Source: Diplonema papillatum | Lineage: Eukaryota > Euglenozoa > Diplonemea > Diplonemida > Diplonemidae | Direction: 5' to 3' | Assembly: GCA_030068145.1 (NCBI GenBank) | Contig: JAPJBO010000116.1 | Coordinates: forward strand, 186,001-250,000 | Length of the DNA: 64,000 bases | Shown here: positions 22,661 to 64,000 of the stretch, piece after piece | Layout of the letters: each line of letters begins with the position of its first letter | How positions within the stretch are numbered: position 1 is the first letter of the stretch | The notes under the pieces: generated by a model | Seen by the model: the letters and a program-made list of their open reading frames with translations, nothing else | Told to the model about the DNA's origin: nothing | Database searches by the model: none | Program-made: the position numbers and the translations under genes

Positions 22661-24004
22661 CGTCTGGAACCCAGCTCTTCCGATATGCTACGATTGGGAA
22701 GGGTTTAAACATTTTTCTTCGAGGAGTGTAGTCTTGGGCCCCCCACGTTCTACAATTTACAATACAGTTTTTCCCTGTTTCTGGCCTTCGTCCTTCCCCA
22801 AGTGGGAAGGCTTCTGGGAGGACTGACGACGCGGGAGTTACATAAGGTGTCTGAATGACGATACCGTCGCAGCGCATGAAATAACAATACATATGCGTAG
22901 TTTTGGTAGAATGTTAGGCTAATCTCCTCCCAAACACGCTGCCGCCGCGTTCTCTTTCGAGTTTAAAAACCTTATTGGTATTACTAATACTCTCCTCCTC
23001 GCCCGTCTCGCTGCTCCGTACTCGCTGCTCTCGTCCTTGCTGCTGCGTGATGCCAGATTGATGGTGCGTAACAAACGTAGAAAGGTCATGCAGAGATTCT
23101 TGTGTATGCCACGAACTTCTTCGTGACGCCTCAGGACACTGGACTTGAAGAAAAAAATTGGGCAAGGGTGGGTGGGCGAGGGGTAAAATTACGGTGTTTT
23201 TCTCGGGACGACAGGGTAACAACCTCTATACAAGTGTTCGTTCTCGTCGGAATACCTTTGTTAATCTTCTAAGATCTTCGATCTTAGCAAGAGCGTGAGC
23301 GGTTGTGTGATGGAGCGAGAGGCCCTGTTTCACAGTATATCATTAGTCGGTTAATATTAATCTTCTAAGACTAGCGTCTTATACGACAAGACAACCTTTG
23401 TTGAACGCTCACGCCCGCCACTAAACCCAGATTTACCTGTGCTTCGTGTGGGTTACAGCACATTTGCCTCCTTTGATCTATCGCAACTGGCAGTCTCCTC
23501 AAGCATTTCCTACAAAGCAGGTGCTTATACAAAAAAAAACCAGCCATACCCGTAAATCCAGCCGACGGGTCCGACGTGCTTGCTGCCTTGCCAGAGAGGA
23601 GGCGCCACGCTGAGGGTGAATCGAAACGCAAGTGATCCGAGGGTGATCACAGGATGCTCTTCATCGGGTCGCTCGCGCTTTTCCGCATGTCTTGAATCTG
23701 TGCGCAAGGTGGTCGTTGTTATTGGTGCTGGTTTTGAGGGAATAGGGAAAGGCAAGAACTTTGCGGTGGTCCGTCGGAATGGCAGTTTGTGCTACTCCCG
23801 TTCTTTTACACTCGTTCTTTTCTCTACTCACTACTGTACATCCCCTTTCACTCTTTCGGGGCAGCAGGGCACCTTGTCCAGGTGGGCAGCGTCACCTCCC
23901 CGATGCGAGCTGATTGCCGGTTGGATGCGGGCAACTGCGCCTTTGTACCACCGACACCCTCTGGGTGCTTCCAAGTTACGCGCAATCGGGGGTTTGCAGC
24001 ATGA
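22661..24004. other. No gene seen; minor dispersed repeats
   Basis: A short repeat at 22917-22975 ('GCTAATCTCCTCCCAAA', 'GCGTTCTCTTTCGAG') recurs at 51393-51440 and 53155-53210. A second at 23045-23130 ('GATTGATGGTGCGTAACAAA') recurs at 24458-24530. No exon is supported. The last coding residues of hslU (about 15) must lie somewhere beyond 25183 but were not located. Confidence 0.5.
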
Positions 24005-25182: not shown

Positions 25183-25236
25183 CTTTGCGTTCACGTAGTC
25201 GACGTCGATGGTGACAACCTTGTCCTGGTAGTCTTC
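25183..25236 (-). CDS. hslU: hslU exon 4: C-terminal segment of the HslU ATPase
   Basis: A perfect acceptor TTTTCCACAG and donor AAG|GTATGT enclose exactly 18 codons, EDYQDKVVTIDVDYVNAK. They match the HslU C-terminal segment that precedes the final DLSRYIL-like tail (E. coli has an equivalent NITIDADYV stretch). The phase is 0 on both sides and joins exon 3 in frame. The remaining exon (about 15 codons plus stop) was not found downstream. The downstream repeat array reaches almost to the donor and the 65-bp array to within 50 bases of the acceptor. Confidence 0.85.
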
Positions 25237-25285
25237 CTGTGGAAAAGGGTTCGCGGGTGAATGATAGCCGCCGCAATTGGGGTAC

Positions 25286-27320: not shown

Positions 27321-28423
27321 TACCTAGGAACGTGTAGTAGTAGTAGTAGTATGTGTCGTCTGCCGAAGCAGCTGGAGACAGCAGGCGCAGGGGGCAGGTC
27401 TTGCATTACTTTTCTCTTCTTCATGGAGACCCGCCCCCGGCATCCCGACTGTCCAATCACTGTCGAGAAAGGTTTGCGCCTATTGTGATGAAATGGTTGA
27501 CCAGGCCCCCGCACGAAGCCTTATGCACAACACGGCTACAACACGAGGATGCAGCCCTGCTTAGGTGTGCACTCAGCCATCAGGCCATTGGCTGCTAAGC
27601 ACCCCCCGGCCGGTTGATTTGCCACTTTTGTGGCCCTCTCTTTTGCCGGGCGGTGCTGTCAGCACTTGTTCCGCGTCGCATCAAGTACATGATGCGACGG
27701 TTGGGGGATCGGCGACTGCGACTCAATGAAGGTGCGGTCAACAGTGTCGCCCGTGAAGGCCCCCCCATGACACCCTAGGAACGTGTAAAAATAGAAAGGG
27801 AAAAAGGCGAGGGGAAGTCCCAATCGACGTCGGTGAGGTCCATGTCCTCACGTGACGGTACAGCCGGCATATTATTAGCGTTATTTGTGGATTAGAAGGT
27901 CGGTGTTTTAAAGTCTCCGGTTGACCGTAGAGGCTTGAGTATGGAGGGGGGCTGAGAAAAGTAAGAGGGTGCTGCTCGTTTCGGGTGGAGTGTCACTCCG
28001 TTGTGAAACCTTGTGAAGTCCCCTAACGCGTTCAGAGGGTGTTTGGGATTGGGTAGGGTGTGGTCGTTCTGCTACGGCGTGAAAAGCCAGGAAGTTTCGA
28101 CGCTAATCTTCGACTGTTGATTATGTTCACGGGTTGCGTGCTCGTCTTTTTGTCGTATTTTTGTTTGTGCGTATGTGCCATCACCTGTATGGTAATTTCC
28201 ACAGTACGCTGTCAACCGTCACTTTTTGATGATGACAACCGCGGTTGTTGCCATTAAAAAAGACAGGCGCTTCGTTTTGTTTGTGTGTGCCGGTTGATCG
28301 TTTTCCCACCCTGTGTATAAGGAATTCTGATCAACCACCAAAACACGCTGCCTACGTCTTTTTAGCCTGTACAATACATTGAAGGGCAACCCACAAGATT
28401 GTTAGTACTAAAAAACGCCACAC
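27321..28423. other. hslU intron 3, upstream part; no gene seen
   Basis: It contains a GTA microsatellite (27334), a perfect small hairpin 'GTCGCATCAAGTACATGATG' near 27678, a family B relic near 27880-27945, and repeat family E (28265-28412) shared with 52975-53110. Family E ends about 11 bases from the donor of exon 3. Confidence 0.55.
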
Positions 28424-29077
28424 CGCAGCGAAGGAGATGTCTTCCACGATCTTCTCGACGACGGTGACGAGCCTTCGGGCGCCGATGTTCTGCATTTCGG
28501 AGTTGAGCTGTTTGGTGAGCTTCGCAATCTCGCGGATGGCCTCGTCGGTGAAGGCGAGGGACACCCCCTCCGTCCTCAACAGCTCCACATTTTGCCGGAT
28601 GATGTTGTAAATCGGTTCGGTTAGTATCCGGTAGAAATCGTGCTCGGTCAGGTTCTTCAGCTCGACTCGGACGGGCAGCCGGCCCTGCAACTCCGCGATC
28701 ATGTCCGACACGCTGGCGACGTGGAACGCTCCGCTGCAGATGAACATGATGTTGTCCGTCCTGATGTTGACGCCGTCCTTCAACGTGACGACCGAGCCTT
28801 CAATCAAAGGGAGAAGGTCCTGTTGCACACCCTCCGCGCTGGCATCGGAGCTCTTGTTCGCGCGCGGCGTCACGACTTTGTCGATTTCGTCGATGAAAAC
28901 GACGCCGTGGCTCTCGGTCAGGTGCTGCGCATCGCGCGCAATCAATTTGCTGTCCATCATCTTCTCGAGCTCGTCGCTCTCGATCAGCGGCAGGGCCTCC
29001 TTCACCGTCTTGCGCATCTTCTTCGTCTTCCCTTTGTCGTCCGTCGGCTTGAAGTCCATCGAGAAGATGAATACGCT
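28424..29077 (-). CDS. hslU: hslU exon 3: Walker B, arginine finger and sensor region
   Basis: A 654-base exon (218 codons, phase 0 both sides; acceptor CGACGCAG, donor GCG|GTGTGG). It encodes residues about 233-450 of HslU: Walker B GVVFIDEIDK near 290-299, MFICSGAFHVASVSDMI, the ELQGRLPVRVEL segment with the conserved Arg, ILTEP, and the sensor-2 box IGARRL near the end. All AAA+ landmarks of bacterial HslU are present in order. The open frame runs on past the donor for about 24 unrelated codons, which supports the splice call. Confidence 0.93.
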
Positions 29078-29085
29078 CTGCGTCG

Positions 29086-29245
29086 GTTTTTTAAGAATTA
29101 AAGTTCGTTTGAAATTCCGGGGGTTTAGGGTCTCCGTGTGACCGTTCATGAATGGGTTCTCTTAGAGCAAGAAAGGGCTATATGGTTACGGGTTGTATAT
29201 TTGGTGCACGGGTTATGGCTAGCCATCTGGGCTAGTTTCTGTCTG
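29086..29245 (+). repeat. Dispersed repeat family B filling hslU intron 2
   Basis: The intron between exons 2 and 3 is only 276 bases (29078-29353), and about 160 of them are this repeat, near-identical to 12224-12360. Its 'TTTTTTAAGAATTAAAGTTC' end lies about 10 bases upstream of the exon 3 acceptor on the minus strand. Confidence 0.8.
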
Positions 29246-29353
29246 GGCTTGGACTGTGCAGTCCTTCTAGATTCTTTTCACAGGTCCGTTCATGCACACC
29301 CATGAAAAATCTTGTATAGGAAAGGAACGCGGGGTGTGAGTGTTAAAGCGTAC

Positions 29354-29542
29354 CTTGAATTGTTCGCCCTCACCATCTCCGCGGGAAGGCGCGTTTTTCA
29401 CATTTCCGGCTTCTTCGGCCGCCACGGTGAAGTCTATCTCAACGTGGTCAAGCTCGCCTTTGTTGAGCATGTCCATGTACTTCTCCATCTCCTCCGGTTT
29501 GTCAGCGCACAGCTTGGACAGCACGATGTTCACGGCCAATTC
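29354..29542 (-). CDS. hslU: hslU exon 2: intermediate domain of HslU
   Basis: A 189-base exon (63 codons, phase 0; acceptor CGCACACAG, donor AAG|GTACGC). It begins ELAVNIVLSKL and ends GEGEQFK. It corresponds to the start of the inserted I domain of HslU (bacterial AEERILDVLL ... GELDDKEIEI); here MLNKGELDHVEIDF is the clearest match. The I domain in HslU contacts substrate above the ATPase ring. The length is short compared with the bacterial I domain but continues in exon 3. Confidence 0.92.
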
Positions 29543-31492: not shown

Positions 31493-31999
31493 CCGGGCCT
31501 TTTTTTGGTTGCGGGACTTGGCCAATTTCTTGGCGCGCTGCACGGCCACTTGGTACAAATCTTCGATGATGGTGTCTACGTCCCTGCCCTTGAACCCCAC
31601 CTCGGTGAACTTGGTCGCCTCGACCTTGACGAAGGGAGCCTCCGTGAGCTTCGCCATCCGGCGTGACACCTCAGTTTTTCCGACGCCGGTCGGCCCTACC
31701 ATCAAGATGTTCTTCGGGTGGATGTCGTCCCTGAGCAGCTTGTCCTTCACCATCGTGCGGCGCCAGCGGTTGCGCAGGCTGATGGCGACGGCTCTCTTCG
31801 CGGACTCCTGGCCGATGATGTACTTGTCGAGCTCCTTCACGATGTCTTGCGGCACGAGGGCCTTCTCCATGATCGCCTTTTCGAGCTCGTGCGTCTCGTC
31901 CGCCGTGCTCAGGATGGCCGGCTTTATCGAAGCCGTGGCCCATCGCCGCGCCGCCCTCAGCCCGGCGGTCCGGCCGATCACGGCGGGAATGCCCTGCAT
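31493..31999 (-). CDS. hslU: hslU exon 1: mitochondrial HslU protease ATPase, N-terminal part
   Basis: HslU is the AAA+ ring that unfolds proteins and feeds them to the HslV peptidase; in euglenozoa the complex acts in mitochondria. This exon (169 codons, donor CGG|GTATGC) starts at an ATG followed by an Arg/Ala-rich presequence ([20 protein letters not shown]) typical of mitochondrial import. HslU itself begins near residue 49 ([20 protein letters not shown]). Walker A is GPTGVGKT at 102-109, followed by [12 protein letters not shown]. The usual pore-loop motif GYVG reads GFKG at 135-138. The four exons give 468 residues, close to bacterial HslU (about 443) plus the presequence and minus a short missing tail. 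HslV is not in the window. Confidence 0.93.
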
Positions 32000-32745: not shown

Positions 32746-33154
32746 GATTCCCCCGGGAGCAGAACACCTCTAGTCTCCGTCCCCCTGCCGCCCCCACCTC
32801 TGGTATGTATAATTTAGCTCGTTTTTTCTTGCATCAAAAAGATCACAGTTTCACCGAGGGAGTTGATGCACCACACGAAAGTCGATAAGTTTTGGGTTAG
32901 AATGCAAAGAATCTGTAGCGATAATCTGCATCGACAAGAGAACTTCACACAGCCTTCAGGGGTGTGGTTGGTTCAAAGAAATGCGTAGTTTTGTTTTATT
33001 CTTTTATTTGTTAGTTGTCGGCAACTTGTTTTTGTGTGAGGTGTCATTCAGATGTAAATCTAAAGCCGCCAACGTCAAATTTTGTTAAGCATTGAGTTCT
33101 TTTAAGTACATGAACCACATGGATTAGCATGCACTTTGTTAAGTGGCTGCCAAA

Positions 33155-33491
33155 GTGACACCTCAGTTTTTCCGACGCCAGTCGGACCTACCATCAAGAT
33201 GTTCTTCGGGTGGATGTCGTCCCTGAGCAGCTTGTCCTTCACCATCGTGCGGCGCCAGCGGTTACGCAGGCTGATGGCGACGGCTCTCTTCGCGGACTCC
33301 TGGCCGATGATGTACTTGTCGAGCTCCTTCACGATGTCTTGCGGCACGAGGGCCTTCTCCATGATCGCCTTTTCGAGCTCGTGCGTCTCGTCCGCCGTGC
33401 TCAGGATGGCCGGCTTTATCGAAGCCGTGGCCCATCGCCGCGCCGCCCTCAGCCCGGCGGTCCGGCCGATCACGGCGGGAATGCCCTGCAT
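33155..33491 (-). pseudogene. Truncated hslU exon 1, copy 3
   Basis: It has the same structure as copy 2, with one extra silent base difference near 33265 (GGTTACG against GGTTGCG). Confidence 0.85.
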
Positions 33492-33900
33492 GATTCCCCC
33501 GGGAGCAGAACACCTCTAGTCTCCGTCCCCCTGCCGCCCCCACCTCTGGTATGTATAATTTAGCTCGTTTTTTCTTGCATCAAAAAGATCACAGTTTCAC
33601 CGAGGGAGTTGATGCACCACACGAAAGTCGATAAGTTTTGGGTTAGAATGCAAAGAATCTGTAGCGATAATCTGCATCGACAAGAGAACTTCACACAGCC
33701 TTCAGGGGTGTGGTTGGTTCAAAGAAATGCGTAGTTTTGTTTTATTCTTTTATTTGTTAGTTGTCGGCAACTTGTTTTTGTGTGAGGTGTCATTCAGATG
33801 TAAATCTAAAGCCGCCAACGTCAAATTTTGTTAAGCATTGAGTTCTTTTAAGTACATGAACCACATGGATTAGCATGCACTTTGTTAAGTGGCTGCCAAA

Positions 33901-34237
33901 GTGACACCTCAGTTTTTCCGACGCCAGTCGGACCTACCATCAAGATGTTCTTCGGGTGGATGTCGTCCCTGAGCAGCTTGTCCTTCACCATCGTGCGGCG
34001 CCAGCGGTTGCGCAGGCTGATGGCGACGGCTCTCTTCGCGGACTCCTGGCCGATGATGTACTTGTCGAGCTCCTTCACGATGTCTTGCGGCACGAGGGCC
34101 TTCTCCATGATCGCCTTTTCGAGCTCGTGCGTCTCGTCCGCCGTGCTCAGGATGGCCGGCTTTATCGAAGCCGTGGCCCATCGCCGCGCCGCCCTCAGCC
34201 CGGCGGTCCGGCCGATCACGGCGGGAATGCCCTGCAT
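33901..34237 (-). pseudogene. Truncated hslU exon 1, copy 4
   Basis: The last unit of the array, identical in layout to copies 2 and 3. Its upstream part stops at 34386, where an inverted piece of the same unit (34394-34500) begins. Confidence 0.85.
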
Positions 34238-34505
34238 GATTCCCCCGGGAGCAGAACACCTCTAGTCTCCGTCCCCCTGCCGCCCCCACCTCTGGTATGT
34301 ATAATTTAGCTCGTTTTTTCTTGCATCAAAAAGATCACAGTTTCACCGAGGGAGTTGATGCACCACACGAAAGTCGATAAGTTTTGGGTTCGAATGCAAA
34401 ATTTGACGTTGGAGGCTTTAGATTTACATCTGAATGACACCTCAACACAAAAACAAGTTGCCGACAACTAACAAGTAAAAGAATAAAACAAAACTACGCA
34501 TTTCT

Positions 34506-37875: not shown

Positions 37876-40650
37876 GGGCGCTGTGGCGGATGCACGCCCG
37901 CATTTTGTCCGGGTCACCGCCGAGAGGACGAAGATGGCCGGGATACGCCACGGAGTCGAGAACTATCCGCCACCCATCACGGCATCCTGGTGTTTTGATC
38001 ATCGTGGAATCATGAAATTTGTGGTTTTCATGGTGGATCACTGAGGCGTCCAAATTAGCTTCTGTTTCTTTACCAGTCCGTCGGCGAATTAAGTATGCCT
38101 TTTTCGCTCGGACTCGCGTCTTTTTGATCATGGTATCATGAAAACGTTGTGCATGATCGTGGCTTTCAAGGTGGATCACCGAGGTACTAATGAGCTTCTG
38201 TTTTCTACCAGTCCGTTGGCGAGTTACGAATGTCCTTGGCCCCCTCCCTTCGGACTAGTGTCTTTTTGATCATGGTATCGCGGATAGGGTGTGCATGGTC
38301 GTGGGTTTCAACGGTAGATCATGTCGCTACGAAGCTTCATCACCGGCGTTGGCGTCGGTAAACTTCGCCTGAATCCAGAGGCGGTGCATGACTGGCTCCT
38401 TCCGGTTCTCAATGTCACGCTCGATGACGTCCACCTTCCGCGGCTCGAACCACGGGGAGAAGAACCGCTGCAGCTCCTCCTCGTCGAAGAAATACGAGCA
38501 CATGCCGCAGGTGCGCATGAAGAAGTTCTCGTCGATCCGCGCACTCGACTTGAACCGCTTCTGCGCGAAGGCGTATTAATGAGCTTCTGTTTTCTGCCAG
38601 TCCGTTGGCGAGTTACGAATGTCCTTTTTCGCTCGAACTAGTGTCTTTTCGATCATGGTATCATGAATATGGTGTTCGTGGTCGTGGGCTTCAACGGTAG
38701 ATCATGTCGTCACGAAGCTTCCTCGGCGCTGGCGTCGGTACGCACGAACTTTGCCTGAATCCAGAGGCGGTGCATGACTGGCTCCTTCCGGTTCTCAATG
38801 TCACGCTCGATGACGTCCACCTTCCGCGGCTCGAACCACGGGGAGAAGAACCGCTGCAGCTCCTCCCTGTCGAAGAAGTACGAGCATGAAGAAGTTCTCG
38901 TCGATCCGCGCGCTCGACTTGAACCGCTTCTGCGCGAAGTCACGGAAGTACAGCAGCCCGCCCGGCTTCACCTTCGCCACGATGTACCGGATGCACGCCC
39001 GCATTTCGCCGGGGGTCACCGCCTGGTATCACGAATATGGTTTACATGGTCGTGGTTTTTCAGCGGAAGGTCATGTGTCGTCACGAAGCTTCATCACCGG
39101 CGCTGGCGTCGGTACGCATGAACTTCGCCTGAACCCAGAGGCGGTGCATGGTGACTGACTCCTTCCGGTTCTCAATGTCACGCTCGATGACGTCCACCTT
39201 CCGCGGCTCGAACCACGGGGAGAAGAACCGCTGCAGCTCCTCCTCGTCGAAGAAATACGAGCACATGCCGCAGGTGCGCATGAAGAAGTTCTCGTCGATC
39301 CGCGCACTCGACTTGAACCGCTTCTGCGCGAAGGCGTATTAATGAGCTTCTGTTTTCTGCCAGTCCGTTGGCGATTTACGAATGTCTTTTTTCGCTCGAA
39401 CTAGTGTCTTTTCGATCATGGTATCATGAATATGGTGTTCACGGTCGTGGGCTTCAACGGTAGATCATGTCGTCACGAAGCTTCCTCGGCGCTGGCGTCG
39501 GTACGCACGAACTTTGCCTGAATCCAGAGGCGGTGCATGGTGACTGACTCCTTCCGGTTCTCAATGTCACGCTCGATGACGTCCACCTTCCGCGGCTCGA
39601 ACCACGGGGAGAAGAACCGCTGCAGCTCCTCCCTGTCGAAGAAGTACGAGCACATGCCGCAGGTGCGCATGAAGAAGTTCTCGTCGATCCGCGCGCTCGA
39701 CTTGAACCGCTTCTGCGCGAAGGCGTATTAATGAGCTTCTGTTTTCTGCCAGTCCGTTGGCGATGACGAATGTCCTTTTTCGCTCGAACTAGTGTCTTTT
39801 CGATCATGGTATCAAGAATATGAAAATGGTGTGCACGGTCGTGGGCTTCAACGGTAGATCATGTCGTCACGAAGCTTCCTCGGCGCTGGCGTCGGTACGC
39901 ACGAACTTTGCCTGAATCCAGAGGCGGTGCATGGTGACTGACTCCTTCCGGTTCTCAATGTCACGCTCGATGACGTCCACCTTCCGCGGCTCGAACCACG
40001 GGGAGAAGAACCGCTGCAGCTCCTCCCTGTCGAAGAAGTACGAGCACATGCCGCAGGTGCGCATGAAGAAGTTCTCGTCGATCCGCGCGCTCGACTTGAA
40101 CCGCTTCTGCGCGAAGGCGTATTAATGAGCTTCTGTTTTCTGCCAGTCCGTTGGCGATGACGAATGTCCTTTTTCGCTCGAACTAGTGTCTTTTCGATCA
40201 TGGTATCAAGAATATGAAAATGGTGTGCACGGTCGTGGGCTTCAACGGTAGATCATGTCGTCACGAAGCTTCCTCGGCGCTGGCGTCGGTACGCACGAAC
40301 TTTGCCTGAATCCAGAGGCGGTGCATGGTGACTGACTCCTTCCGGTTCTCAATGTCACGCTCGATGACGTCCACCTTCCGCGGCTCGAACCACGGGGAGA
40401 AGAACCGCTGCAGCTCCTCCCTGTCGAAGAAGTACGAGCACGTGCCGCAGGTGCGCATGAAGAAGTTCTCGTCGATCCGCGCACTCGACTTGAACCGCTT
40501 CTGCGCGAAGGCGTATTAATGAGCTTCTGTTTTCTGCCAGTCCGTTGGCGATGACGAATGTCCTTTTTCGCTCGAACTAGTGTCTTTTCGATCATGGTAT
40601 CAAGAATATGAAAATGGTGTGCACGGTCGTGGGCTTCAACGGTAGATCAT
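37875..40650 (-). pseudogene. Array of partial 3' copies of the tRNA methyltransferase gene
   Basis: At least seven minus-strand fragments precede the intact gene. They lie at 37875-37940 (internal scrap), 38320-38577, 38706-39025, 39075-39342, 39470-39730, 39864-40124 and 40258-40520. The last three are in 394-bp units that are nearly identical. Each carries the last 65-110 codons (NFFMRTC, CSYFFDREELQRF, the DASAEEAS end) plus spacer with 'CGAACTAGTGTCTTTTCGAT'. None has the SAM-binding motif. Older units are more diverged, suggesting growth next to the gene. Confidence 0.9.
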
Positions 40651-40654
40651 GTCG

Positions 40655-41509
40655 TCACGAAGCTTCCTCGGCGCTGGCGTCGGTACGCACGAACTTTGCC
40701 TGAATCCAGAGGCGGTGCATGGTGACTGACTCCTTCCGGTTCTCAATGTCACGCTCGATGACGTCCACCTTCCGCGGCTCGAACCACGGGGAGAAGAACC
40801 GCTGCAGCTCCTCCCTGTCGAAGAAGTACGAGCACGTGCCGCAGGTGCGCATGAAGAAGTTCTCGTCGATCCGCGCGCTCGACTTGAACCGCTTCTGCGC
40901 GAAGTCGCCCCTGCAGTAGTCGCGGAAGTACAGCAGCCCGCCCGGCTTCACCTTCGCCGCGATGTGCCGGACGCACGCCCGCATTTTGTCGGGGGTCACC
41001 GCCGAGAGGACGAAGATGAGCGTCGCCAGGTCAGCAACGGAGTCAGGCACCGTATCCGGGAGGGGTGCCGCCGTCAGGTCATGCTGGAACACGGTCAACC
41101 GGTTTGCGTCGTACTGCGGGCTTTGCTTGATGAGTGTCACGGCCACTTTCGAGAGATCGAACGCGTAGCAAGTCAGCCGCGGGTGCTCTTCTAGCAGGGG
41201 GAAGAAGGCGTTGCCGACGCCGCAGCCGCACTCCAGCAGGACGGAGGCCGTGCGGATTTCCTCGACTTCCCGGGTCAGGTAGTGCCGGTCTTTGAAGCCG
41301 AGGGTGGCGTTCTGCTTGTAGTAGTTGTTCCACATCTTCTCCGCGTCCTTGACAGGGTCCGCGGCCAGGCGCATGCCCGTGCCCTCCGTGTACGGCGCGT
41401 AGTGCTGCACGAACGGCTTCATCAGGCTGAACCTGTTCGTCGCGCCCCTTTGCGCCGCCGGTTTCGCGCCCCCGCCCTTCCCGCTGGGTGCTTCCTTCGC
41501 GCTTGCCAT
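40655..41509 (-). CDS. tRNA N3-methylcytidine methyltransferase, METTL2/METTL6 family
   Basis: This 284-residue enzyme is expected to methylate cytidine 32 (N3 position) of tRNA anticodon loops using S-adenosylmethionine. Family landmarks are present in order: MWNNYYKQN near 59-67, the SAM-binding motif LLECGCGVGNAFFPLL at 91-106, CYAFDLSKVAV at 114-124, and IFVLSAVTPDKM at 165-176. KVKPGGLLYFRDYCRGDFAQ at 186-205, ENFFMRTCGTCSYFF at 216-230 and ERDIENRK near 252-259 follow. The length equals that of human METTL6. It is intronless and complete. The first 25 residues are low complexity. A strong splice acceptor 45 bases upstream of the ATG may receive a spliced leader. Whether it corresponds to METTL2 or METTL6 I cannot decide. 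Confidence 0.93.
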   Translation of the reverse strand: MASAKEAPSGKGGGAKPAAQRGATNRFSLMKPFVQHYAPYTEGTGMRLAADPVKDAEKMWNNYYKQNATLGFKDRHYLTREVEEIRTASVLLECGCGVGNAFFPLLEEHPRLTCYAFDLSKVAVTLIKQSPQYDANRLTVFQHDLTAAPLPDTVPDSVADLATLIFVLSAVTPDKMRACVRHIAAKVKPGGLLYFRDYCRGDFAQKRFKSSARIDENFFMRTCGTCSYFFDREELQRFFSPWFEPRKVDVIERDIENRKESVTMHRLWIQAKFVRTDASAEEAS

Positions 41510-41553
41510 TTTACGGAGGGGGTCAAGAGACAGAAAAAGGACTTCCCTCGTGT

Positions 41554-41575
41554 CCTGCGAAAAACAACGAAGAAC
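41554..41575 (-). promoter_or_regulatory. Predicted splice acceptor in the methyltransferase 5' leader
   Basis: On the minus strand a pyrimidine-rich tract ends TTGTTTTTCGCAG|GACACG, leaving a 45-base leader before the ATG at 41509. It could be a trans-splicing site for the spliced leader or the end of a leader intron. Confidence 0.5.
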
Positions 41576-41671
41576 TGCTCGAAGAAGGTGGGTGTCACGA
41601 AAGCACCGCGGACATGCTTGTTGTCTATTTCTTCCGGCCTGGGTTGGGGTTTTGAGAGTTGAGGGAGCATT

Positions 41672-41958: not shown

Positions 41959-44196
41959 CCCAACTCCGACCAACCGGACATATATATGTCCGGTTTAATC
42001 TGGATTTTTCTGTAGGGGTGCTCAGGAGGCGCCAAAAAATTCCCAAAAATATGGAATTCACCCATTTCGAGCAAATCTTTTCATTGCCGCCCTCGAATGT
42101 CAAAAATTCGTCAGCAATGACGATTGAAACCAAGTGGCGAGATTGGGGAAACCCCCGGAAAACCGGCTTTTTCAATGCCTTGTCATCAACAGTCGAAACA
42201 ATCCAGGAAGTTGGGCAGTGAAAAGTACAAAATGTCTGGAAGGAAGCGGGCGGCCACGGATATGGAGAGTGTGGGGTCGACAGAAGAAGAGGACAACGAG
42301 GAAGCAGAAGAGGTGGAAGAGGAAGAGGACGAGGAAGAAGAAGAGGATGAAGAAGAGGAAGAGGATGACGATAACGACAACAACAGGTCGGGAAGGACAG
42401 TGCGCGAACAAGTGCATCATCTCGACATACGCGATGGGGTTGTCCGTGAAACAGGATCTCTACTCGTACTGGTCCGTGGACCCTATCGAACAATGCGCGT
42501 TTTTTTCTGAAACCATGTCCAGGAAAAGGTGGCACGATATTCACAGGACGCTGCACTTCACAGACCCCCTCAGTGGAAAGAAGGAACACCCGGACCGACT
42601 CATCAAGATAAGAGATATTTTCCAGCTTGTGTCTCTCCAATGGCGGGATGTCTATGCTCCCGATAAAGAACTTAGCTTTGATGAGTCGATCATCAAGTAC
42701 AAAGGTCGTGTCAGCTTCAAGCAATACATGCCCATGAAACGGCATCGATTCGGTTTGAAGTGTTTTGTTCTGGCTGAGTCACAGACTGGTTACACATTGG
42801 TATCGTCAGTGTATACCGGTAAGATTGACACGGATACTAACCCTGGCCCCGTGAACGTTGGTGAGCGTGAACTTCTTGCAGCTGCGGCTCTGTATGCATA
42901 CTCAGGAAGGCACATGTACATGGACAACTACTACACAAGCATTCCCCTCATGCTAAAATTATACACCTTGGGATTCCACGCGGCCGGAACTGTCCGCAAA
43001 AATCGGAACGGGATCCCACTTTTTAGCAAGTCCCAAAAGAAGCGCGGCCGCCCATCCCAAGCGGATAAGGCTGCGGCCCCGAAACGCGGCCATTGCCAGT
43101 ATCGCCAAAGTTCGCCGATCACGTTCTTGGAGTGGGTTGACAAGCGTGAAGTCCGCATGTTGTCAACACTCCCCATTGGAACAACAATGACCGAGCTTGA
43201 GCGTCGCTGCAAGGGGGGAAAGCGGTTGAAGGTCAGTAAGCCAGACATCGTGGTTGCTTACAACAAACACATGGGGGGGGTAGATCGCTGCGACCAGTAC
43301 CTTGCCCGGGCGACACGATTCATGCAGGGCAAACGATGGTATATGAAAGTCTTCTTTTATTTGCTCGAAGTGTCTGCGTTGAACAGTTTTATCTTGTACA
43401 AGCGTCTTGGTAAGAATCGCGGGTCCTTACCCTTCAAGGACTTCAGAAAAGAGCTCATCCGCGGGTTACTTGCTGACAACCGCAGTACTGAGGACTTCAG
43501 CCCCGGAACGCGCACACCTCGGGCTAGCGACCACCCGTCGCGCCTGGATGGCAAGTTCCATGCCATTCTGGAAACAGACACCCGCGTTGCGTGCAAATGC
43601 CATGTTCGTTTGGTCAAGACGAAATATGTCTGCAAAACATGTGGCGTGGCTCTGTGTCCCGCTCCGTGTTTTACCCGGTTTCACACCCTCAAGAACCACC
43701 ATTACTACGAGCCGGAAACTCCTGGGACCCAGCGCTTGAAGAAACGAGGCGGCCGCCCTTGCAAGCAGGGGCGCCCTCCCACACTCAAAGGAGTGCGTCT
43801 GACGTATACCGAGTCTACTGATGAAAGTGACTGCAGTGGCCAGTAGTTGCGTGAACTGCCCACCTGCCCCGTACCTCAATTTCCTGCGTCTTGCCCGTTA
43901 TCTCGCCATCACTCCAACCCCCTGGAAGGAAATCTAAACCACGCGAGAAAACAAAAGATTGTCAAGGTTGCGGTGAAACGTTGTCGACGAATTAGAGACG
44001 GTCATAAGCGAGAAGACGATGACAGACTAGTGCAACATCATGTCAAAATTTCGCCTTCCAAGGGCGGCAATGGAAAGATATGCTTCGAAATCGCAAAATT
44101 CCAGCCCCAGAATGCCCAAAAGAGCGAAGGCACTCTATAAAAATGAAAAATAGGAAAAGGTGGAAATTAACCTGTAGGTGCTTGGTCGGAGTTGGG
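41959..44196 (+). mobile_element. piggyBac transposon
   Basis: A 2,238-base element with perfect 15-base ends, CCCAACTCCGACCAA and its complement. It is preceded by TTAA and followed by TCAA, so the canonical TTAA duplication has one changed base. A 20-base palindrome (CCGGACATATATATGTCCGG) lies just inside the left end. It carries one transposase gene. Confidence 0.9.
42134..43846 (+). CDS. piggyBac transposase (DDE_Tnp_1_7 family)
   Basis: The ORF cuts and pastes the element at TTAA. The three catalytic Asp lie in LSFDESIIKYKGR (about 194), MYMDNYYTSIPL (about 259) and MGGVDRCDQYL (about 380), spaced as in active members. Also visible are LYSYWSVDPIEQCAFF, SRKRWHDIHRTLHF and the C-terminal Cys-rich zinc domain from CKCHVRLVKTKYVC to CFTRFHTLKNHH (about 491-527). 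The N-terminus is odd. In this frame residues 1-90 are basic and repetitive. The overlapping frame from the ATG at 42232 gives the acidic MSGRKRAATDMESV start typical of piggyBac proteins but leaves the transposase frame. Part of the region before YWSVD looks shortened. A frameshift or small deletion near 42385 is likely, so the copy may be inactive. Confidence 0.88.
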   Translation: MARLGKPPENRLFQCLVINSRNNPGSWAVKSTKCLEGSGRPRIWRVWGRQKKRTTRKQKRWKRKRTRKKKRMKKRKRMTITTTTGREGQCANKCIISTYAMGLSVKQDLYSYWSVDPIEQCAFFSETMSRKRWHDIHRTLHFTDPLSGKKEHPDRLIKIRDIFQLVSLQWRDVYAPDKELSFDESIIKYKGRVSFKQYMPMKRHRFGLKCFVLAESQTGYTLVSSVYTGKIDTDTNPGPVNVGERELLAAAALYAYSGRHMYMDNYYTSIPLMLKLYTLGFHAAGTVRKNRNGIPLFSKSQKKRGRPSQADKAAAPKRGHCQYRQSSPITFLEWVDKREVRMLSTLPIGTTMTELERRCKGGKRLKVSKPDIVVAYNKHMGGVDRCDQYLARATRFMQGKRWYMKVFFYLLEVSALNSFILYKRLGKNRGSLPFKDFRKELIRGLLADNRSTEDFSPGTRTPRASDHPSRLDGKFHAILETDTRVACKCHVRLVKTKYVCKTCGVALCPAPCFTRFHTLKNHHYYEPETPGTQRLKKRGGRPCKQGRPPTLKGVRLTYTESTDESDCSGQ

Positions 44197-51044: not shown

Positions 51045-51054
51045 CTGCGGTGGT

Positions 51055-51200
51055 GTGGGGGAAAGTTGTTAGCTTAATGATCCGGCAGAACACTGCCTGT
51101 CGTGCATGTTTGATGCTAGCATGGCAGAACACTGCCTATCGTGCATGTTTGATGCTAGCTGGCAGAACACTGCCTGTCGTGCGTGTTGGATGCTAGCATC
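51055..51200 (+). repeat. Dispersed repeat family G at an intron end
   Basis: 'GTGGGGGAAAGTTGTTAGCT' and three tandem 'CTGCCTGTCGTGCATGTTTG' type units. It starts about 10 bases from the exon 4 acceptor, inside intron 3 of the RS-rich gene. Confidence 0.7.
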
Positions 51201-51485
51201 GAGGCATTCAACATAAATGAGGACGGGATGCGAGAATTCAACGTGCTTGAAATGGTGTGTATGCATCACGTGCACAGAATAATTGAACTGCTTGGCATAA
51301 GGTATGTCCCACGTGCAGAAAATATTTGCACGTCGTCGGAGTCGTTCTGACCCCAAACGCCTTGTGGCATCGCCTGGTCTCTCACATCAGGATCGGAAGG
51401 CTAATCTCCTTCGAAACACGATGCCAGCGTTCTCTTTCGTGTTTACAATGCACGTTGTTACTACGGAAACCTGACTTTCAAGGCA

Positions 51486-51535
51486 GTGCATGCTATCCAC
51501 GTGGTTCATGTACTTAAAAGAACTCAATACTACGG
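51486..51535 (-). repeat. Dispersed repeat family H at an intron start
   Basis: 'CACGTGGTTCATGTACTTAA' and 'AAGAACTCAATAC' end about 10 bases from the exon 3 donor at 51544. It is the reverse of the copies at 32343 and 44292. Confidence 0.7.
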
Positions 51536-51544
51536 AAAACACAC

Positions 51545-52099
51545 CGTGGGCGGCGGTGCCGGGAGCCACCACGATCGCGTCCCGCGTGGCCGTCAGATGC
51601 GGGTTTTCGACCTCCTCTTCCGCCGACACCCGGCGCTTCTTCTTCTTGTCGTGGTGTTTCTCCTTCTTCTCCTTTTTCTTGTCTTTTTTATCCTTTTTGT
51701 CCTTCTTCGCCTTCTTCGCCTTCGCGTGGCTCTCGTCGTCGGTTCCTTGCTGCTGGTGCGCGAGCGCAGCTCTCGGAGACCGGCGGCCCATGGGGGACGG
51801 GGGTGCCTTGATGTACGTCGCGTCGGACGGCGGCAGCTGGGGCGGCGGCGGCGAGATGGGATCCGTCGTCCTGGGGCGGAACTGCGGCGTCATGTCGGAG
51901 AGGGACTGCATGGTCGAATCCTCAGCCTGCGGGGGCGGGGTGCCGCGGCCCCGCGCGGAAGCTTCGCTGTACTCGTCGCTGCGCAACGAGGACCGGCGCG
52001 ACGGGGGGGACGCGGTGCCTGCGCCTAGTGGATACTGCACGGACTCGAGGATCGAGCCACGCCGCGCCGCATTGACGTCGCTGACTGACAACATCGAGC
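51545..52099 (-). CDS. RS-rich repeat protein, exon 3
   Basis: A 555-base exon (acceptor CCCACAGAG, donor CACG|GTGTGT). It begins SMLSVSDVNAARRGSI, contains Pro/Ser-rich linkers (PISPPPPQLPPSD), and has a strongly basic Lys run (KKAKKDKKDKKDKKKEKKEK) near its end, likely a nuclear localisation or nucleic-acid-binding tract. An alternative acceptor two bases upstream would break the phase. The internal Met (52094) would allow a shorter start but is not needed. Confidence 0.7.
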
Positions 52100-52132
52100 C
52101 TCTGTGGGTGAAAGTAGAGTGGTGGACAGAGT

Positions 52133-52465
52133 TGTGCGCACTGGCGGAACTCCCCTGCTATAGTTAGCTTCATGTAGCACGCTGACAACTACTAATCTTA
52201 GGGCCAACACTGCACTGTGCGCACTGGCGGAACTCCCCTGCTATAGTTAGTTTCATGTAGCACGCTGACAACTACTAATCTTAGGGCCAACACTGCATTG
52301 TGCGCACTGGCGGAACCCTGCTATAGCAAGTTTCACGTAGCACGCTGACAACTACTAATCGTAGGGCCAACTGCATTGTACGCACTGGCGGGACTCCCCT
52401 GCTATAGTAAGTTTCATGTAGCACGCTGACAACTACTAATATTAGGGCCAACACTGCATTGATAA
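52133..52465. repeat. Tandem repeat, 4 units of about 82 bp
   Basis: Units begin near 52133, 52217, 52299 and 52377 with 'GTGCGCACTGGCGGAA' and contain 'CACGCTGACAACTACTAAT'. A single relative lies at 63135-63215. The array sits in intron 2, about 35 bases from the exon 3 acceptor. Confidence 0.8.
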
Positions 52466-53376
52466 CACAAAGAAATGTTGAGAGAGACAAGAGAGAGAAT
52501 TTCGTGAACGAAGTGAGAGCTTATACCGAAGGGCGGACTTGGCGCGCGGGGGGGTGATCACAACTGAAAAACGCGTGATCGCATGTTGATATCGCGTTAC
52601 CAACATATGCCGTCGTCCGTGTGTAATTTCCACGACAGGTGGATCGTGTGGTAAAACAAATACAGCCGGAAAAGTGATACCTGCGGCTACCCGATGAGTG
52701 ATCGTTGAAGTAACTGTTCTCGCGTGGGGACCCCGAGCGGCGGACGATGACGACGCCTGTGGCTTCAGCTGCGTCGCAGAGCTTGTCTTTTCCGTATTTG
52801 TATCCAAGACGACACACTACGTTCGACGAGGTGCCTGCGTGTGTGTTTACGTTCACAGCTTGAAGTCGACAACAGCCCCCCTTTGACGGTTGCCTGGCAA
52901 GCTTTGGTCCCATGACTTCTCTCGAAGGCGTGGGTGAAGACACGATCCGATGTTGTCAGCATGCACGACAGGGGAGGGGTGTTGATCGTTTTCCCACTTG
53001 TTTTGAACCTGTGCCACCTCCAGGTGTTCGGGACAACCCACCAAAACACCTGGCATACGTCTTCTTTGCCTTAATAATGCAGGCCCTCCGAGATTGCTAG
53101 TACTCAGAAGCATAGGCACAACCTTTGTTTCTAATGCCGCGAGTTATGATCTGTAAGCTAATCTCCTCCCAAATAAGCCTGCCCCAGCGTTCTCTTCCAA
53201 GATAACAATTTATTGCTGCTGTCAAAGATGCATTTTCACTTACGTCCCTTTTTGCTTGTGCGCACTTCCTTCAAACCTGTGTTTTGTTCATCTAACGGGA
53301 GATGAGGATAGTACGCTGCCATCGATCTGTTTTTTGCTCTTGACAAATAGCATTTGTTAGACACAAAAAAGTGCAC
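52466..53376. other. Rest of intron 2 of the RS-rich gene
   Basis: It holds repeat family E (52975-53110, shared with the hslU intron at 28265-28412) and the short repeat at 53155-53210. No separate gene is evident. Confidence 0.5.
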
Positions 53377-53693
53377 CGTGTTTCGGAGACCCGACAGGCG
53401 TGACGGCAGCGGATTCGACGGCGTCGATGTCGGGGAAGCTCGGCCGCTTGGCAGGCGAGCCCCCTGGGGGTGACTTGCGCAGGCTCGAACGCCTGGGGTG
53501 GGCTGCGTCGTACGAGGACCGCCGCCGCGGTGTGGACAGCCCAGCGGAGGACCCGCGGGAGCCCGGCCCGGACGACGACGAGCCGGTCGAATACCGGCGC
53601 CGGCGTCCGCGGCCGCTCGGCTTCGAAGACAAGCCGCTGCTGCTCGTCCTCCGCCGCCGGCGGGACCGCGGAGAAGGCGAGCGAGTTCCGGAC
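53377..53693 (-). CDS. RS-rich repeat protein, exon 2
   Basis: A 317-base exon (acceptor AAAAAGCAG, donor CACG|GTGCAC; 1 + 315 + 1 bases, so phases fit both neighbours). It encodes an Arg/Ser-rich stretch, SGTRSPSPRSRRRRRTSSSG, then GRGRRRRYS and SSLRKSPPGGSPAKRPSFPD. It is typical of splicing-associated or other nuclear RS proteins that are phosphorylated on Ser. The antisense open frames here are by-products of the base bias. Confidence 0.7.
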
Positions 53694-53698
53694 CTGCT

Positions 53699-53790
53699 TT
53701 TTAGAGTGAGAGTTCGCTTGCGGATCCGGGGTTTCAAAGTCTCCGGGAAAGCATGGTCGAAAGGGTTCTTTTCTGGTAATGATAACCCTC
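53699..53790 (+). repeat. Dispersed repeat family B at an intron end
   Basis: 'GTTCGCTTGCGGATCCGGGG' and 'GTCTCCGGGAAAGC'. Its 'TTTTTAGAGTGAGAG' end lies 5-8 bases from the exon 2 acceptor on the minus strand. Confidence 0.8.
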
Positions 53791-55953: not shown

Positions 55954-56324
55954 GCACCAGCCCCGCTCAAGCGGGGCTCCGTCTGGAAAGAGACAAGGCT
56001 AGCGAGCCGAACAGGCCTGCCTATCCGGGCCGTCGCGGCAACCGTCTATTTCTGTCAGGGGGAGTCGAGAGATAACCAATCGCGGTGCAGGTACGTGTGC
56101 GTGTCTTTGTTGCCTCGGGCAACCGGCAGTCTGTTGCCTGTGACGGCGTTCTTTTGGTTGTATATCAGAGCATCAGCTTGTTTACAAGCTGATGCCCTGA
56201 TGCCCCCAAGCTGCATTCCGCTGTTCTTTCTTTTTCCAAAGCCTCAAACCCGGGAAGCCGGCCTCACGGGAAATGTGGTTTAATAGATATCAGGTTGAAT
56301 AGAAACGAGAAAGAAAGCGCACAC

Positions 56325-57287
56325 CTTCTCTTCCGGTCCAGCTCACGCTGCTGCGGCCGTTTCCCCGTTCCCCTCCTCCTGCTGCTGCTGCCGGACGACG
56401 CTGACGACTTCTTCGACCGGCGCCTAGCGGGGGTCCCGGATCGGGACCGAGAGCGGGACCCAGACGGCATGTGGTGCCGCCGCGCGACCACGATGCTGCT
56501 GGGGCTGCCGTCGCCCGGGGGGTCCGACGACAAGCTGCGCAGCGCCGCGTGCACTTCTGCCTTCGACGGCACCGGGATGCTCCGCATCGACCCCCGAGGG
56601 TCTGGAAGCCCATCGGACTTCCGGCCCGGGCTCACGAACCGGAGCCTCCCGGTCTGCGGGGTTCCCGTAACGAGCGACACGTCTTCGTTCGTGACGCCGT
56701 GGGTCGACGCGTACGACAGGTACGGCGAAGGCGAACGCTTCCGCGGGTACTCGCACGCCGACGCAGACGAATCCCGCGAGCTCTTCCGCCCGGACCCTGG
56801 CGAAGCCACCCCCAGCAGCCCCTCCCCTCGGCGAGCCCCCGGCTCGGGCCCCGTGTCGGGGCCCGCGCGCCGCTGCCGCGCCGCGACCAGCGGCGTCGGC
56901 GCCAGCGCAACGACGCCGCCCGCAGTGTGCGGCGGGGGGGCTTCTTCGGCGCCGCCCTGGGTGTGCTGGACGGAGTATCCGCCAGCCCCGGGGCGGTGGC
57001 GGTGGTGGCGGTGGTGGGAGTGTCCGCCGGGCCCACGGTCCTCCGAAGACTCCGACAGCGGCGGGGTTTCCGCGCCGGTCTGGTGCCGGGAATAATAGCC
57101 GCCGCCCCCAGGGCGCTGCTGCTGCTGCTGCTGCTGCTGCCGCCGCTGCTGGTGCTGGTGGTGGTGGTGGCGGGAGGCCCCGACGGCGGGCGAGTGTCCG
57201 CTGGGCCCAGGGTCCTCCGAAGACCCCGACAGCGGCGGTGTTTCAGCGCCAGTCTGGTGCCGTGAATTATAGCCGCCGCCCCCAGGG

Positions 57288-57325
<38 letters not shown>

Positions 57326-58322
57326 CTGCCGCTGCCGCCGCTGCTGCTGGCGGGAGCCCGTAGCAGCGGCGCCCCTGGGGCGGGGGGGGTCCGAAGACTC
57401 CGACAGCGGCGGTGTCGCCGTCTGGTGTTCCGCTGAGTTGCCGGCCGCTGCCCTCGGCTGCGTCGTGGCAAACGCGGCCCGGTGATCGTCAAACGGCGGC
57501 GAAGACGAAGGCGTTCCCGGGGAGCCCCGACCCGCCGAAGCACAGTCCGGAAGACCGCGCCGCAGGTCCGGCTGCGTGATCAAAAACGCGGTGCAGTCGC
57601 TGAACCCGGGCGACGTGGGGTCCATCGCCGCCGATTCGAACGGGTTCCTCCGCGCCCCGCCCCCGCTCCCTTGGCCGTACGACCGGCGCCCAGCCGGTAG
57701 ACTCGCGTCTTGGTCGGTGGTCAAAAACGCACTCCGCTCGTCAAAAGACGCGGAAACCCCCGGTGAGTGCGGATCCATCGAAGAACCCCCAGACGGGCTT
57801 CCTCTGGCCCCTTGTGCATCTATGCCGCGGTGCCGGTTGACGGGAGCGTGGGTTTGCGTGGTCAAGAACTCGCTCCGCTCGTTGAAGGACGCGGAAAACC
57901 CCGGGGAATGCGGGTCCACTCCAGACGGGCTTCCTCCGGCCTTTCGCGCACCTTTGCCTTGGTGGCGGCTGCCGGTAGCATGCGTCTGCGTGGTCAACAA
58001 CTCGCTCCGCTCGTTGAAGGACGCAGAAAATCCTGGGGAATGCGGGTCCACTACAGACGGGCTTCCTCCGGCCTTTCGCGCACCTTTGCCTTGGTGCCGG
58101 CCGGCGGGAGCGTGCGTCTGCGTGGTCAGCAACTCGCTGCGCTCGTTGAAAGACGCGGAGAACCCCGGGGAATGCGGGTCGACCGGGCCGTACCGCCTGC
58201 CGGGCAGCCGGACCTGCGTCGTCAACAGGTCGCTCCGCTCGTGGAACGTCGGCGAGTAAGAAGGCGACGCCGGCGAGGACACGCGGTCGAACGAGACCTC
58301 CGGGGCCCGCTGCCGTTGGTGC

Positions 58323-58355
<33 letters not shown>

Positions 58356-59614
58356 AGCAGCTGGCCGGCCTGCGCGTGGAGGAACCGCTCCCGCATCGTT
58401 TCGGTCAGGCCCACCGTCGGGGAGTGGGCGGACAGTTCGAGCGGGTTCTCCATCGAATCCCGATGCTGCGCTCCGTGCGCGAACGCGGCTCGTTCCCGCA
58501 TCGTCTCGGTCAGGCCCACCGTCGGGGAGTGGGCGGACAGTTCGAGCGGGTTCTGCGGCGAGACCGACGCGGCTGCCGCGCGCTGCCGAGCGTCGAGGAA
58601 TTCGGCTCGTTCCCGCATGGTAGCCGTGAGACCCACCGTGGGGGAGTGCGCCGACAACTCAAGCGGGTTTCGCAGGGAATCCGAGGCGGCTTGGGTACGC
58701 TGCTGCGCGTCGAGGAATTCGGCTCGTTCCCGCATGGTAGCCGTGAGACCCACCGTGGGGGAGTGCGCCGACAACTCAAGCGGGTTTCGGAGGGAATCCG
58801 AGGCGGCTTCGGCGCGCTGCTGCGCGTCGAGGAATTCGGCCCGGTCCCGCATGGTAGCCGTGAGACCCACCGTGGGGGAGTGCGCCGCCAAGGCGAGCGG
58901 ATTGTTGGGACGGCCCGGAGAGTCCGACGCCTCCAGCCCCCGCCGCACCGCGCGTTCACGCATGGTTGCGGTGATCCCCACGGCCGGGGAGTACGACGCC
59001 AGCTCCAGAGGGTTCGCCGCCGCCTCGTCGGGCGTCGCGGGCGGCGGCGTCAGCGGCTGGACGCCGCGGGGGTGCTGCGGCAGGCTTTTCCGGCCGTCGT
59101 CCGGCGGAAACGGCGGTGTTGCCGGCGGCTGCGACGGAGCCGTGTCGTACGCCTCTTGACTGCTCCTGGACGACGGCCGCACGGACGAAAACGAGCCGTT
59201 TGAGTGCGTGTCCGACGTGCGTCTGTTCTTCGCTGGTGCCTTCCGCACACGGACAGTGGAGGTGGTGGTCGAGACGACGACAACCTCTGCTGGTGACTTC
59301 GTGCGGGTTGCCTGCCGGTGGGCGGTGGCGGAGATGTGCTTTCGGTACCGTGCCCGGTAGCCCTGGTCCCCGGGGGAGGACGAGCCGGAAGAGCTGGACG
59401 ACGCGGCCGGCGAATACGCCAGGGGCGCCGCCTGGTACCTCTGCAGCAGCAGCTCCTCCAGCGGCCACGCGCCCCCGCGCAAGCTCTTCGCCTCGAACTC
59501 CAGCTGCATCAGCGCTTCGACGGACCGGCTGATCATCCTCCTCTGCTCGCCGCTCATGCAGTGCAGCTCCGTCTCGAGCGCATCGCCGTCCACGAACGCG
59601 GCTTTGCGACTCAT
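56325..59614 (-). CDS. RS-rich repeat protein, exon 1 (1,096 codons)
   Basis: The first and largest exon of a four-exon gene coding 1,523 residues (exons 3290 + 317 + 555 + 410 bases, exactly divisible by three). The protein starts MSRKAAFVDGDALETELHCM with a helical head (residues 1-60). About six repeats NPLELSAHSPTVGLTATMRE lie at 210-405, a poly-Gln run near 420, about six repeats DPHSPGFSASFNERSELLTT at 450-680, and Gln/His-rich tracts at 755-835. An RS/KK-rich end runs to the donor AGAAG|GTGTGC. The S-P dipeptides suggest phosphorylation-controlled scaffolding. No enzyme domain is visible and the function is unknown. A possible leader acceptor (TTTCCGCAG near 59690) precedes it. The frame continues 20 codons past the donor to a stop at 56264. 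Confidence 0.75.
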
Positions 59615-63215: not shown

Positions 63216-63439
63216 TGTTAACACAAAGAAGTTGCCTTGTCATTTTCATCACCTTTGGTCACTTGATGCTGCTCGTCCGTTACTTCGTTTATCAGAGCAA
63301 GCCCAACTCCGGAAATGTTCCCACCGCGGTGTTGTGCACACCTCGTTCTCGTGAATGCAGACCACTCCAAAGCTCATCAGCGGGTCCCTTGGCCAAAGAG
63401 TTGAAGTATGGCTAAAGAGGAAATACTCGACGTAGCTGC

Positions 63440-63660
63440 ATCGACTCCGAATGGAAGGGAGGAAATATACACAATCTGATTTGTTCTGCGCTTACACCAC
63501 CGTGTGTTGTTTTCTCACTCAAGACTTTGACCTGTTTTGTCGTGTAGGGGTAGACCCGCATGACCTCACCGTTCAACACGTCTTGGGATCCCTTCTGTTC
63601 TTTGTCTGGCAGCATCGTCGAGCATTTCCTGTCAAGCTGGCGCTTAGTGTAAAAAAAGGA
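63440..63660 (+). repeat. Dispersed repeat family C, copy 2, at the Prp3 intron start
   Basis: It matches 1037-1290. Its end ('CGCTTAGTGTAAAAAA') lies about five bases inside the intron that begins at the Prp3 exon donor. Confidence 0.8.
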
Positions 63661-63663
63661 TAC

Positions 63664-64000
63664 CAGACAAAACGAGATCCAAGTAGAGCGTGGCTTCGAA
63701 ACCTTCAAGGTATTTCCTCGCCTTCTCTTCGTTGCTGAACGTTAGCGACTTGAAGGTGGGCAGCCGCTTCTGGCTCGAGGAGCCTTGCCACACGGTGACA
63801 ACGTTGGCCGGTGCCAGCGGGTCGTCTATTTTGTAGTCAATCCGGTGCAGCAACAGCCGGGCGTACTTGCGCATGGGCTTGCGGCCTCCTTCGACGACAA
63901 CCATGTTGATGCCGCCGTCGATGGTCACCAGCATGCCGGAGAGGTGGAACTGCTTCGCATTTTCGGTGATCTTCCAGATAGCCTGCGTCGAATGCAAATG
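63664..64000 (-). CDS. PRP3: U4/U6 small nuclear ribonucleoprotein Prp3, C-terminal exon (partial)
   Basis: Prp3 binds the U4/U6 duplex and the 3' tail of U6 in the tri-snRNP before spliceosome activation. This exon encodes its C-terminal ferredoxin-like domain (DUF1115). It shows ENAKQFHLSGMLVTIDGGIN, the signature MVVVEGGRKPMRKYARLLLHRI, VVTVWQGSSSQKRLPTFKSL and EKARKYLEGFEATLYLDLVLS. These match human PRPF3 NAKQ...LTG, [38 protein letters not shown] and YWDLALS. It runs off the right edge of the window. The preferred donor is TCTG|GTATCC at 63664, after which only a few C-terminal residues are expected. Minus strand. Confidence 0.9.

Follow-up and report, generated by a model that had tools for sequence, protein, structure and literature searches.

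In a 64,000-nucleotide stretch of the Diplonema papillatum (Euglenozoa) genome, positions 186001-250000 of its contig and called the window here, and in other loci of this genome fetched by their similarity to two repeat families, B and X, the ends of short dispersed repeats lie within a few bases of coding boundaries more often than expected from control positions, and the end that faces the exon tends to be the A-tail of the element. The explanation to which we give about an even chance is retroposition into runs of A or T at the edges of introns that already existed, with the tail of the inserted copy directed toward the exon. The elements probably did not make the introns, to judge from the flanks of the repeats and from a related protein.

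The sole gene of the window whose splice sites are verified against a protein record is hslU. The spliced translation of its five exons is letter-identical to the annotated protein DIPPA_00021 (P0003), and its introns (31492-29543, 29353-29078, 28423-25237 and 25182-23698) are all GT-AG. A repeat map, drawn from matches between the window and 64 fetched loci (199 kb), places consensus repeat ends 9 bases from two of the eight splice sites, with a third site 13 bases from a weakly supported end (Table 1). A first-pass annotation of the window had put family B beside the exon 3 acceptor and family E beside the donor at 28423, and both placements are confirmed, with ends at 29087 and 28414. Its description of intron 2 as mostly one repeat was too strong: 140 of its 276 bases, about half, belong to the detected B copy, and the recognised head of this copy is 127 bases from the donor. 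The head of the E copy in intron 3 directly follows an A-run (28256-28261) which is apparently the tail of a neighbouring element. The repeat end at 23711, together with a family X end at 53370, was absent from the first-pass annotation.

Table 1. Positions in the window of the hslU exons, the proposed RS-rich exon 2 and the repeats that end beside verified or proposed splice sites.
Feature	Positions	Strand	Basis or remark
hslU exon 1	31493..31999	-	spliced translation identical to P0003
hslU exon 2	29354..29542	-	spliced translation identical to P0003
hslU intron 2, 276 bases, about half family B copy	29078..29353	-	repeat map and verified gene model
Family B retroposon, A-tail at 29087 toward exon 3, 9 bases from intron-2 acceptor	29087..29226	-
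hslU exon 3	28424..29077	-	spliced translation identical to P0003
Family E element, antisense to hslU, A-tail (28414) toward exon 3, 9 bases from intron-3 donor (28423)	28262..28415	+
hslU exon 4	25183..25236	-	spliced translation identical to P0003
hslU exon 5 and stop codon	23647..23697	-	spliced translation identical to P0003
Dispersed repeat, end 23711, 13 bases from intron-4 acceptor (23698)	23711..23857	.	only 3-4 matches
Diverged family B copy, A-tail 2-4 bases from proposed RS exon-2 acceptor (53694)	53698..53772	-	end at about 53696-53698
Proposed RS-rich exon 2	53377..53693	-	coding-like, no protein match, also in the coding-score training set
Family X copy, A-tail (53370) 6 bases from proposed RS exon-2 donor, antisense to the gene	53230..53371	+
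Family H repeat, end 51531, 13 bases from proposed RS exon-3 donor (51544)	51468..51533	+
Family G repeat, contains a 39-base tandem unit, 11 bases from proposed RS exon-4 acceptor (51046)	51057..51203	.
Family C repeat, abuts end of Prp3 C-terminal domain ORF, 6 bases from 63663	63421..63657	.

Several other features of the hslU region were noted. A 65-bp unit is repeated 11 times at 25284-25999, inside intron 3 and about 47 bases before its acceptor, and a fragment of 28S rRNA (Rfam RF02543, the sole Rfam match) lies at 24718-24815 on the reverse strand and resembles the roughly 3600 pieces of 28S reported for the genome. The 5' region of the gene (the 5'UTR and the first part of the coding sequence) is repeated in tandem with a period of 746 bp at 31663-34400, and the extra copies part from exon 1 after GGAAAAACTGAGGTGTCAC. 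These copies agree with the tandem repeats of gene 5' ends described by Valach et al. (2023, PMC10161547).

Repeat ends lie 13 bases or less from four of the five checked sites of a second, proposed gene, which is rich in RS. The adjacency of families H and G to the donor at 51544 and to the exon 4 acceptor was as the first-pass annotation had it. Family B does adjoin the acceptor of exon 2, at 2-4 bases rather than the 5-10 given there, in a gene model without a protein match. Searches at E 1e-3 and E 1e-10 with portions of the RS protein, within the length and word limits of the tool, returned no match, and the proposed RS exons were used to train the coding score, so that their own score is no independent proof. 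An RS-rich ORF of 1116 amino acids at 56264-59614 on the reverse strand, which has no database match at E 1e-10, may be exon 1 of this gene.

Two further annotated adjacencies were confirmed as distances, beside an exon and a donor that are themselves in question. Family B ends at 12222, 31 bases from the supposed acceptor of an AT-hook exon at 12191, as had been claimed (about 30), and the exon itself is rejected: on a coding scale the adjoining sequence has a value of -18.5, whereas 17 pieces of exons, known or proposed and for the most part training material, range from 5.2 to 19.6. Family C ends at 63657, 6 bases from 63663, and the status of 63663 as a donor is doubtful. Residues 3-108 of a 117-amino-acid ORF (63644-63997) align to positions 10-137 of the 138-position Prp3_C profile, and with so nearly complete a match the gene may end at 63644, so that 63663 need not be a donor and is rejected as a necessary one. 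Elsewhere in the window, the reverse strand carries a 1449-amino-acid ORF with endonuclease and reverse transcriptase domains at 5521-9870, a non-LTR retrotransposon and a candidate partner of the short elements, and the forward strand carries a 570-amino-acid ORF with a DDE_Tnp_1_7 transposase domain at 42134-43846.

If exons are drawn by eye where repeats stop, then the adjacency of repeats and splice sites in a repeat-rich genome could be the product of chance, sharpened by the drawing. The numbers from hslU alone would allow this, where a repeat end lies 15 bases or less from three of eight sites and the local background is 12.6% (p 0.069), and the failed AT-hook exon speaks for it. Boundaries were also taken from a codon score, trained first on exons known or proposed and afterwards on the sample itself, which outside hslU is the basis for calling sequence coding. 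The sample comprised 53 sequences (the window and 52 loci chosen for their similarity to B or X), with 225 kb and 63 coding segments. Left out were 12 redundant loci, four loci overlapping the window, segments shorter than 150 bases or with 40% or more repeat, boundaries within 60 bases of a sequence end, and the tandem copies at 32400-34300 and 38300-41600 of the window (also 6000-18500 in the by-eye orientation and edge-composition analyses). The control consisted of random positions that are neither coding nor repeat.

Repeats were found within 15 bases of 15 of the 79 boundaries kept (control 5.0%) and within 30 bases of 22 (control 9.2%). The excess is present in the window alone (5/33 boundaries of coding segments at 15 bases or less, control 3.7%, p 0.0066) and in the 52 loci without the window (10/46, control 5.3%, p 0.00013), and in these loci it persists when the central element that brought each of them into the sample is ignored (6/46, control 4.6%, p 0.018). 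A choice of exons by eye thus does not suffice to explain the adjacency in the window and in the loci fetched with B or X. In six 8-kb regions placed arbitrarily, with boundaries within 80 bases of a sequence end left out, 1 of 26 boundaries lay within 15 bases of a repeat against a control of 2.6%, a sample which neither confirms nor excludes an excess; the excess accordingly applies to the first sample and may or may not extend to the genome as a whole. Chance is favoured by this last count, by the repeat content of the assembly (52%, PMC10161547) and by the genome-wide tallies given below, in which CAG is not in excess after B tails, nor GCATAC after X tails. The count of 10 in 46, in loci chosen by B or X similarity and nothing else, and the asymmetry between tails and heads described below both speak against it, and we consider it improbable.

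Families B and X have an A-tail at one end and, in independent copies, a variable other end; in the other families A-tails were seen only as ends that are T- or A-runs. Exact tail strings occur 1732 times (family B) and 343 times (family X) in the 271-Mb genome. Direct repeats of 8-11 bases are present at both ends in 4 of 36 rows of B copies (AAAAAGTGTGA, AAAAAGGGT, AAAAAAAC and AAACAAAA), several further rows share just 5 bases of A or nearly A, and none was found in the remaining rows of the 36. The clear target duplications, which come from few copies and from family B, begin with an A-run, and by eye some B copies start in the apparent A-tail of another copy (L016, L028). A-tails, apparent target duplications in A-runs and heads apparently set in older tails are marks of target-primed retroposition at A-runs, and the best reading of these elements is that they are short A-tailed retroposons so inserted. 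We take them to be SINEs or 5'-truncated copies of non-LTR elements, which presumably insert by target-primed reverse transcription. A long form of X runs, in L056 and L057 (from about 1632 on, in element orientation), into an open frame that starts MPAVHRDDIDLSTVKWKDV; the frame is antisense to the A-tail and is shorter in L053 and L055.

In the sample, the end of an element that adjoins an exon tends to be its tail. When B and X copies outside the window were scored with the retrained version, the sequence after the tail was coding-like in 8 of 69 rows, and the sequence before the head in 1 of 75 (p 0.014); the counts are 6/36 tails against 0/39 heads for B and 2/33 against 1/36 for X. These rows are not deduplicated, and p is 0.028 when L023, a tandem duplicate, is taken off the numerator. 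The first version of the score had found coding-like sequence beside 4 of 34 B tails and 1 of 34 X tails. The same asymmetry is seen across all families, where an A-tail points outward at 13 of 22 repeat edges within 30 bases of coding sequence and at 144 of 855 edges more than 150 bases away (p 1.4e-5), a comparison that leaves out the edges at 30-150 bases; with the window excluded the counts are 9/15 near edges and 117/662 distant ones (p 4e-4). Inspection by eye shows the sense orientation in nine B-type copies near acceptors (in hslU intron 2, the RS gene, L018, L021, L023, L029, L034, L010 and L065, those of L010 and L065 being about 45 bases from the acceptor), and antisense tails in the T-runs near donors. 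This tail-first bias is a supported addition to the first-pass reading, which had spoken of adjacency without orientation. Two loci may be described separately. In L029 the coding-like exon at 1656-1981 lies between two tails, one of B ahead of the acceptor and one of X beyond the donor, as at the proposed RS exon 2. In L018 the end of an exon, the donor and a T-run occur twice, as a 45-base direct repeat that flanks an element of about 105 bases; the exon is one that we take, by eye, to be adenylate-kinase-like.

If ancestral introns were short and insertion into them dense, then any element that entered an intron would come to lie near both of its splice sites, and a preference for particular targets would not be needed. 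Some of the data have the form expected of small introns, since the excess of repeats lasts out to 60 bases from the boundary, both in the loci (21/46, control 19.3%) and in the arbitrary regions (5/26, control 9.5%). Relatives have canonical introns with medians of 41-107 bases (Thakur et al. 2025, PMC12621601), and in D. papillatum the median is below 1 kb and long introns often contain elements (PMC10161547). This explanation, however, predicts heads as close to exons as tails are, contrary to the counts for B and X, and it leaves the outward A-tails at 13 of 22 near edges unaccounted for. We regard it as possible, at clearly lower probability than retroposition into A/T runs; small ancestral introns may also add to the effect of retroposition beside existing splice sites.

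The mechanism we favour, retroposition into A/T runs at intron edges, would proceed as follows. Short A-tailed retroposons would insert by target-primed reverse transcription at A-runs, which are T-runs on the other strand. Such runs would be present at the edges of pre-existing introns, as T-runs after donors and as A-runs before acceptors, and also in the A-tails of older copies. Insertion at either edge would turn the A-tail toward the exon and set it immediately outside the splice signal, so that copies before acceptors would be sense and copies after donors antisense. Later elements would land in the tail already there, by which the tail would be kept in the same place. We infer target preference as the cause of the adjacency, together with serial landing of tail in tail, and short ancestral introns would be the setting. 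A tentative extension, which we think somewhat doubtful, makes the A-tails at intron edges into landing pads that renew themselves: an initial copy would enter an A/T run beside a splice signal and later families its tail, the tiny introns of diplonemids would thereby grow long, and the splice signals would stay a few bases outside the tail.

Composition at intron edges bears on the supply of targets. On the forward strand of the assembly, GTATGCN{0,5}T6 occurs 382 times and the control GCATACN{0,5}T6 100 times, an excess due in part to one recurrent string, GTATGCCATTTTTT; on the reverse strand the counts are 904 and 185, with long T-runs counted more than once. The T6 excess fits T-runs at donors, without showing that elements made them. 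Within the 225-kb sample, 10 of 264 occurrences of GTATG have T5 in the next 6 bases (CATAC 0), as do 8 of 365 of GTACG (CGTAC 1), and there is no excess for GTGTG (6/1011; CACAC 8) or GTAAG (2/258; CTTAC 7). T5 starts within 11 bases of the GT in 5 of 20 automatically chosen donors. At element-free edges the bias is slight, T reaching 0.29 after 20 donors, and A 0.27 and C 0.28 before 26 acceptors, against a background of A 0.23, C 0.27 and T 0.23, at sites which were picked automatically and some of which are doubtful.

A different origin had been raised in the first-pass annotation, in which introner-like elements create introns and supply the splice sites; in a wider form of this reading the duplicated target may supply them instead. 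Repeat ends near splice sites are what such elements would leave. If splice sites were supplied in this way, then a constant signal should follow the tails, and the sequences flanking the tail ends, 40 of B and 35 of X, contain no constant splice signal. CAG follows within 8 bases in 275 of the 1732 B tails, compared with 317 for the single control GAC, some of whose matches come from one recurrent neighbour string; with no excess over GAC, B tails just before acceptors can amount to a few per cent at most. GCATAC, the antisense of a GTATGC donor, follows within 12 bases in 1 of the 343 X tails, where about 1.1 is expected. Among the B and X copies, no intron was found that is a donor-to-acceptor copy of one family: few sampled copies adjoin exons at all, those that do have no coding-like sequence in the head-side windows scored, and the recognised head of the B copy in hslU intron 2 is well short of the donor. 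The alternative in the same annotation, that elements prefer to insert beside splice sites, fared better; it agrees with the window and with the loci fetched by B or X, was not reproduced in the small sample of six arbitrary regions, and finds no excess of X tails at GTATGC donors genome-wide.

The age of individual introns can be approached through a relative. The ENA protein P0007 is 65% identical to the P0003 query and groups with diplonemid-like HslU records, and its end, ..ISYNAVC, falls exactly where P0003 continues past intron 3. P0007 ends as if it had been read into a GTN TGY donor, and hslU intron 3 would then predate its E copy, whose identity to other copies reaches 96%. Judged from the protein record, intron 3 thus appears to be older than the element that adjoins it, at a position apparently common to the relative. 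Introns 1 and 2 seem to be absent from P0007, which is apparently an unspliced reading frame; intron 2 may consequently have been gained. This apparent absence favours creation of introns by elements. We nevertheless judge that origin very improbable, given the tail flanks and the apparent age of intron 3.

Kinetoplastids are almost without introns, and their diplonemid sisters have many (PMC12621601). The same article reports short introns in relatives, with a warning from its authors that long introns may be missing, and describes CA- or CAC-rich motifs and, in one diplonemid species, an A-rich 3' tract; it also proposes a MITE-like origin for the noncanonical introns of hemistasiids. Short introns and A in the 3' tract agree with retroposition into A/T runs at intron edges. 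Valach et al. (2023, PMC10161547) report elements inside introns of D. papillatum. A literature search found no title or abstract opening on the distance of repeat ends to splice sites in diplonemids. Tail-first insertion at intron edges, if true, would explain how introns grow without loss of their splice sites, and would separate the growth of introns from their birth in diplonemids; the landing pads, if true, would constitute a genome-wide route of intron enlargement driven by retroposons.

The elements share with SINEs and with 5'-truncated non-LTR copies their short length, copy numbers in the hundreds to thousands, an A-tail, a variable head and, in a few B copies, apparent target duplications in A-runs; they differ in that their tails crowd beside exons in part of the sample. 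With introners, as described by Gozashti et al. (2022, PMC9860276), in a main text that contains no word beginning with diplonem or euglen, they share dispersed family copies whose ends lie a few bases from splice sites, whereas few of the sampled D. papillatum copies lie beside exons, none of those examined spans an intron from donor to acceptor, and no splice signal is constant at their ends. The intronic transposable elements reported for the same genome are the closest in setting, although the consulted part of that article (PMC10161547) does not mention their orientation or their distance from splice sites. The noncanonical introns of hemistasiids also tie mobile elements to diplonemid introns, through the MITE-like origin proposed for them (PMC12621601), while the verified introns of D. 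papillatum are GT-AG and its elements are A-tailed.
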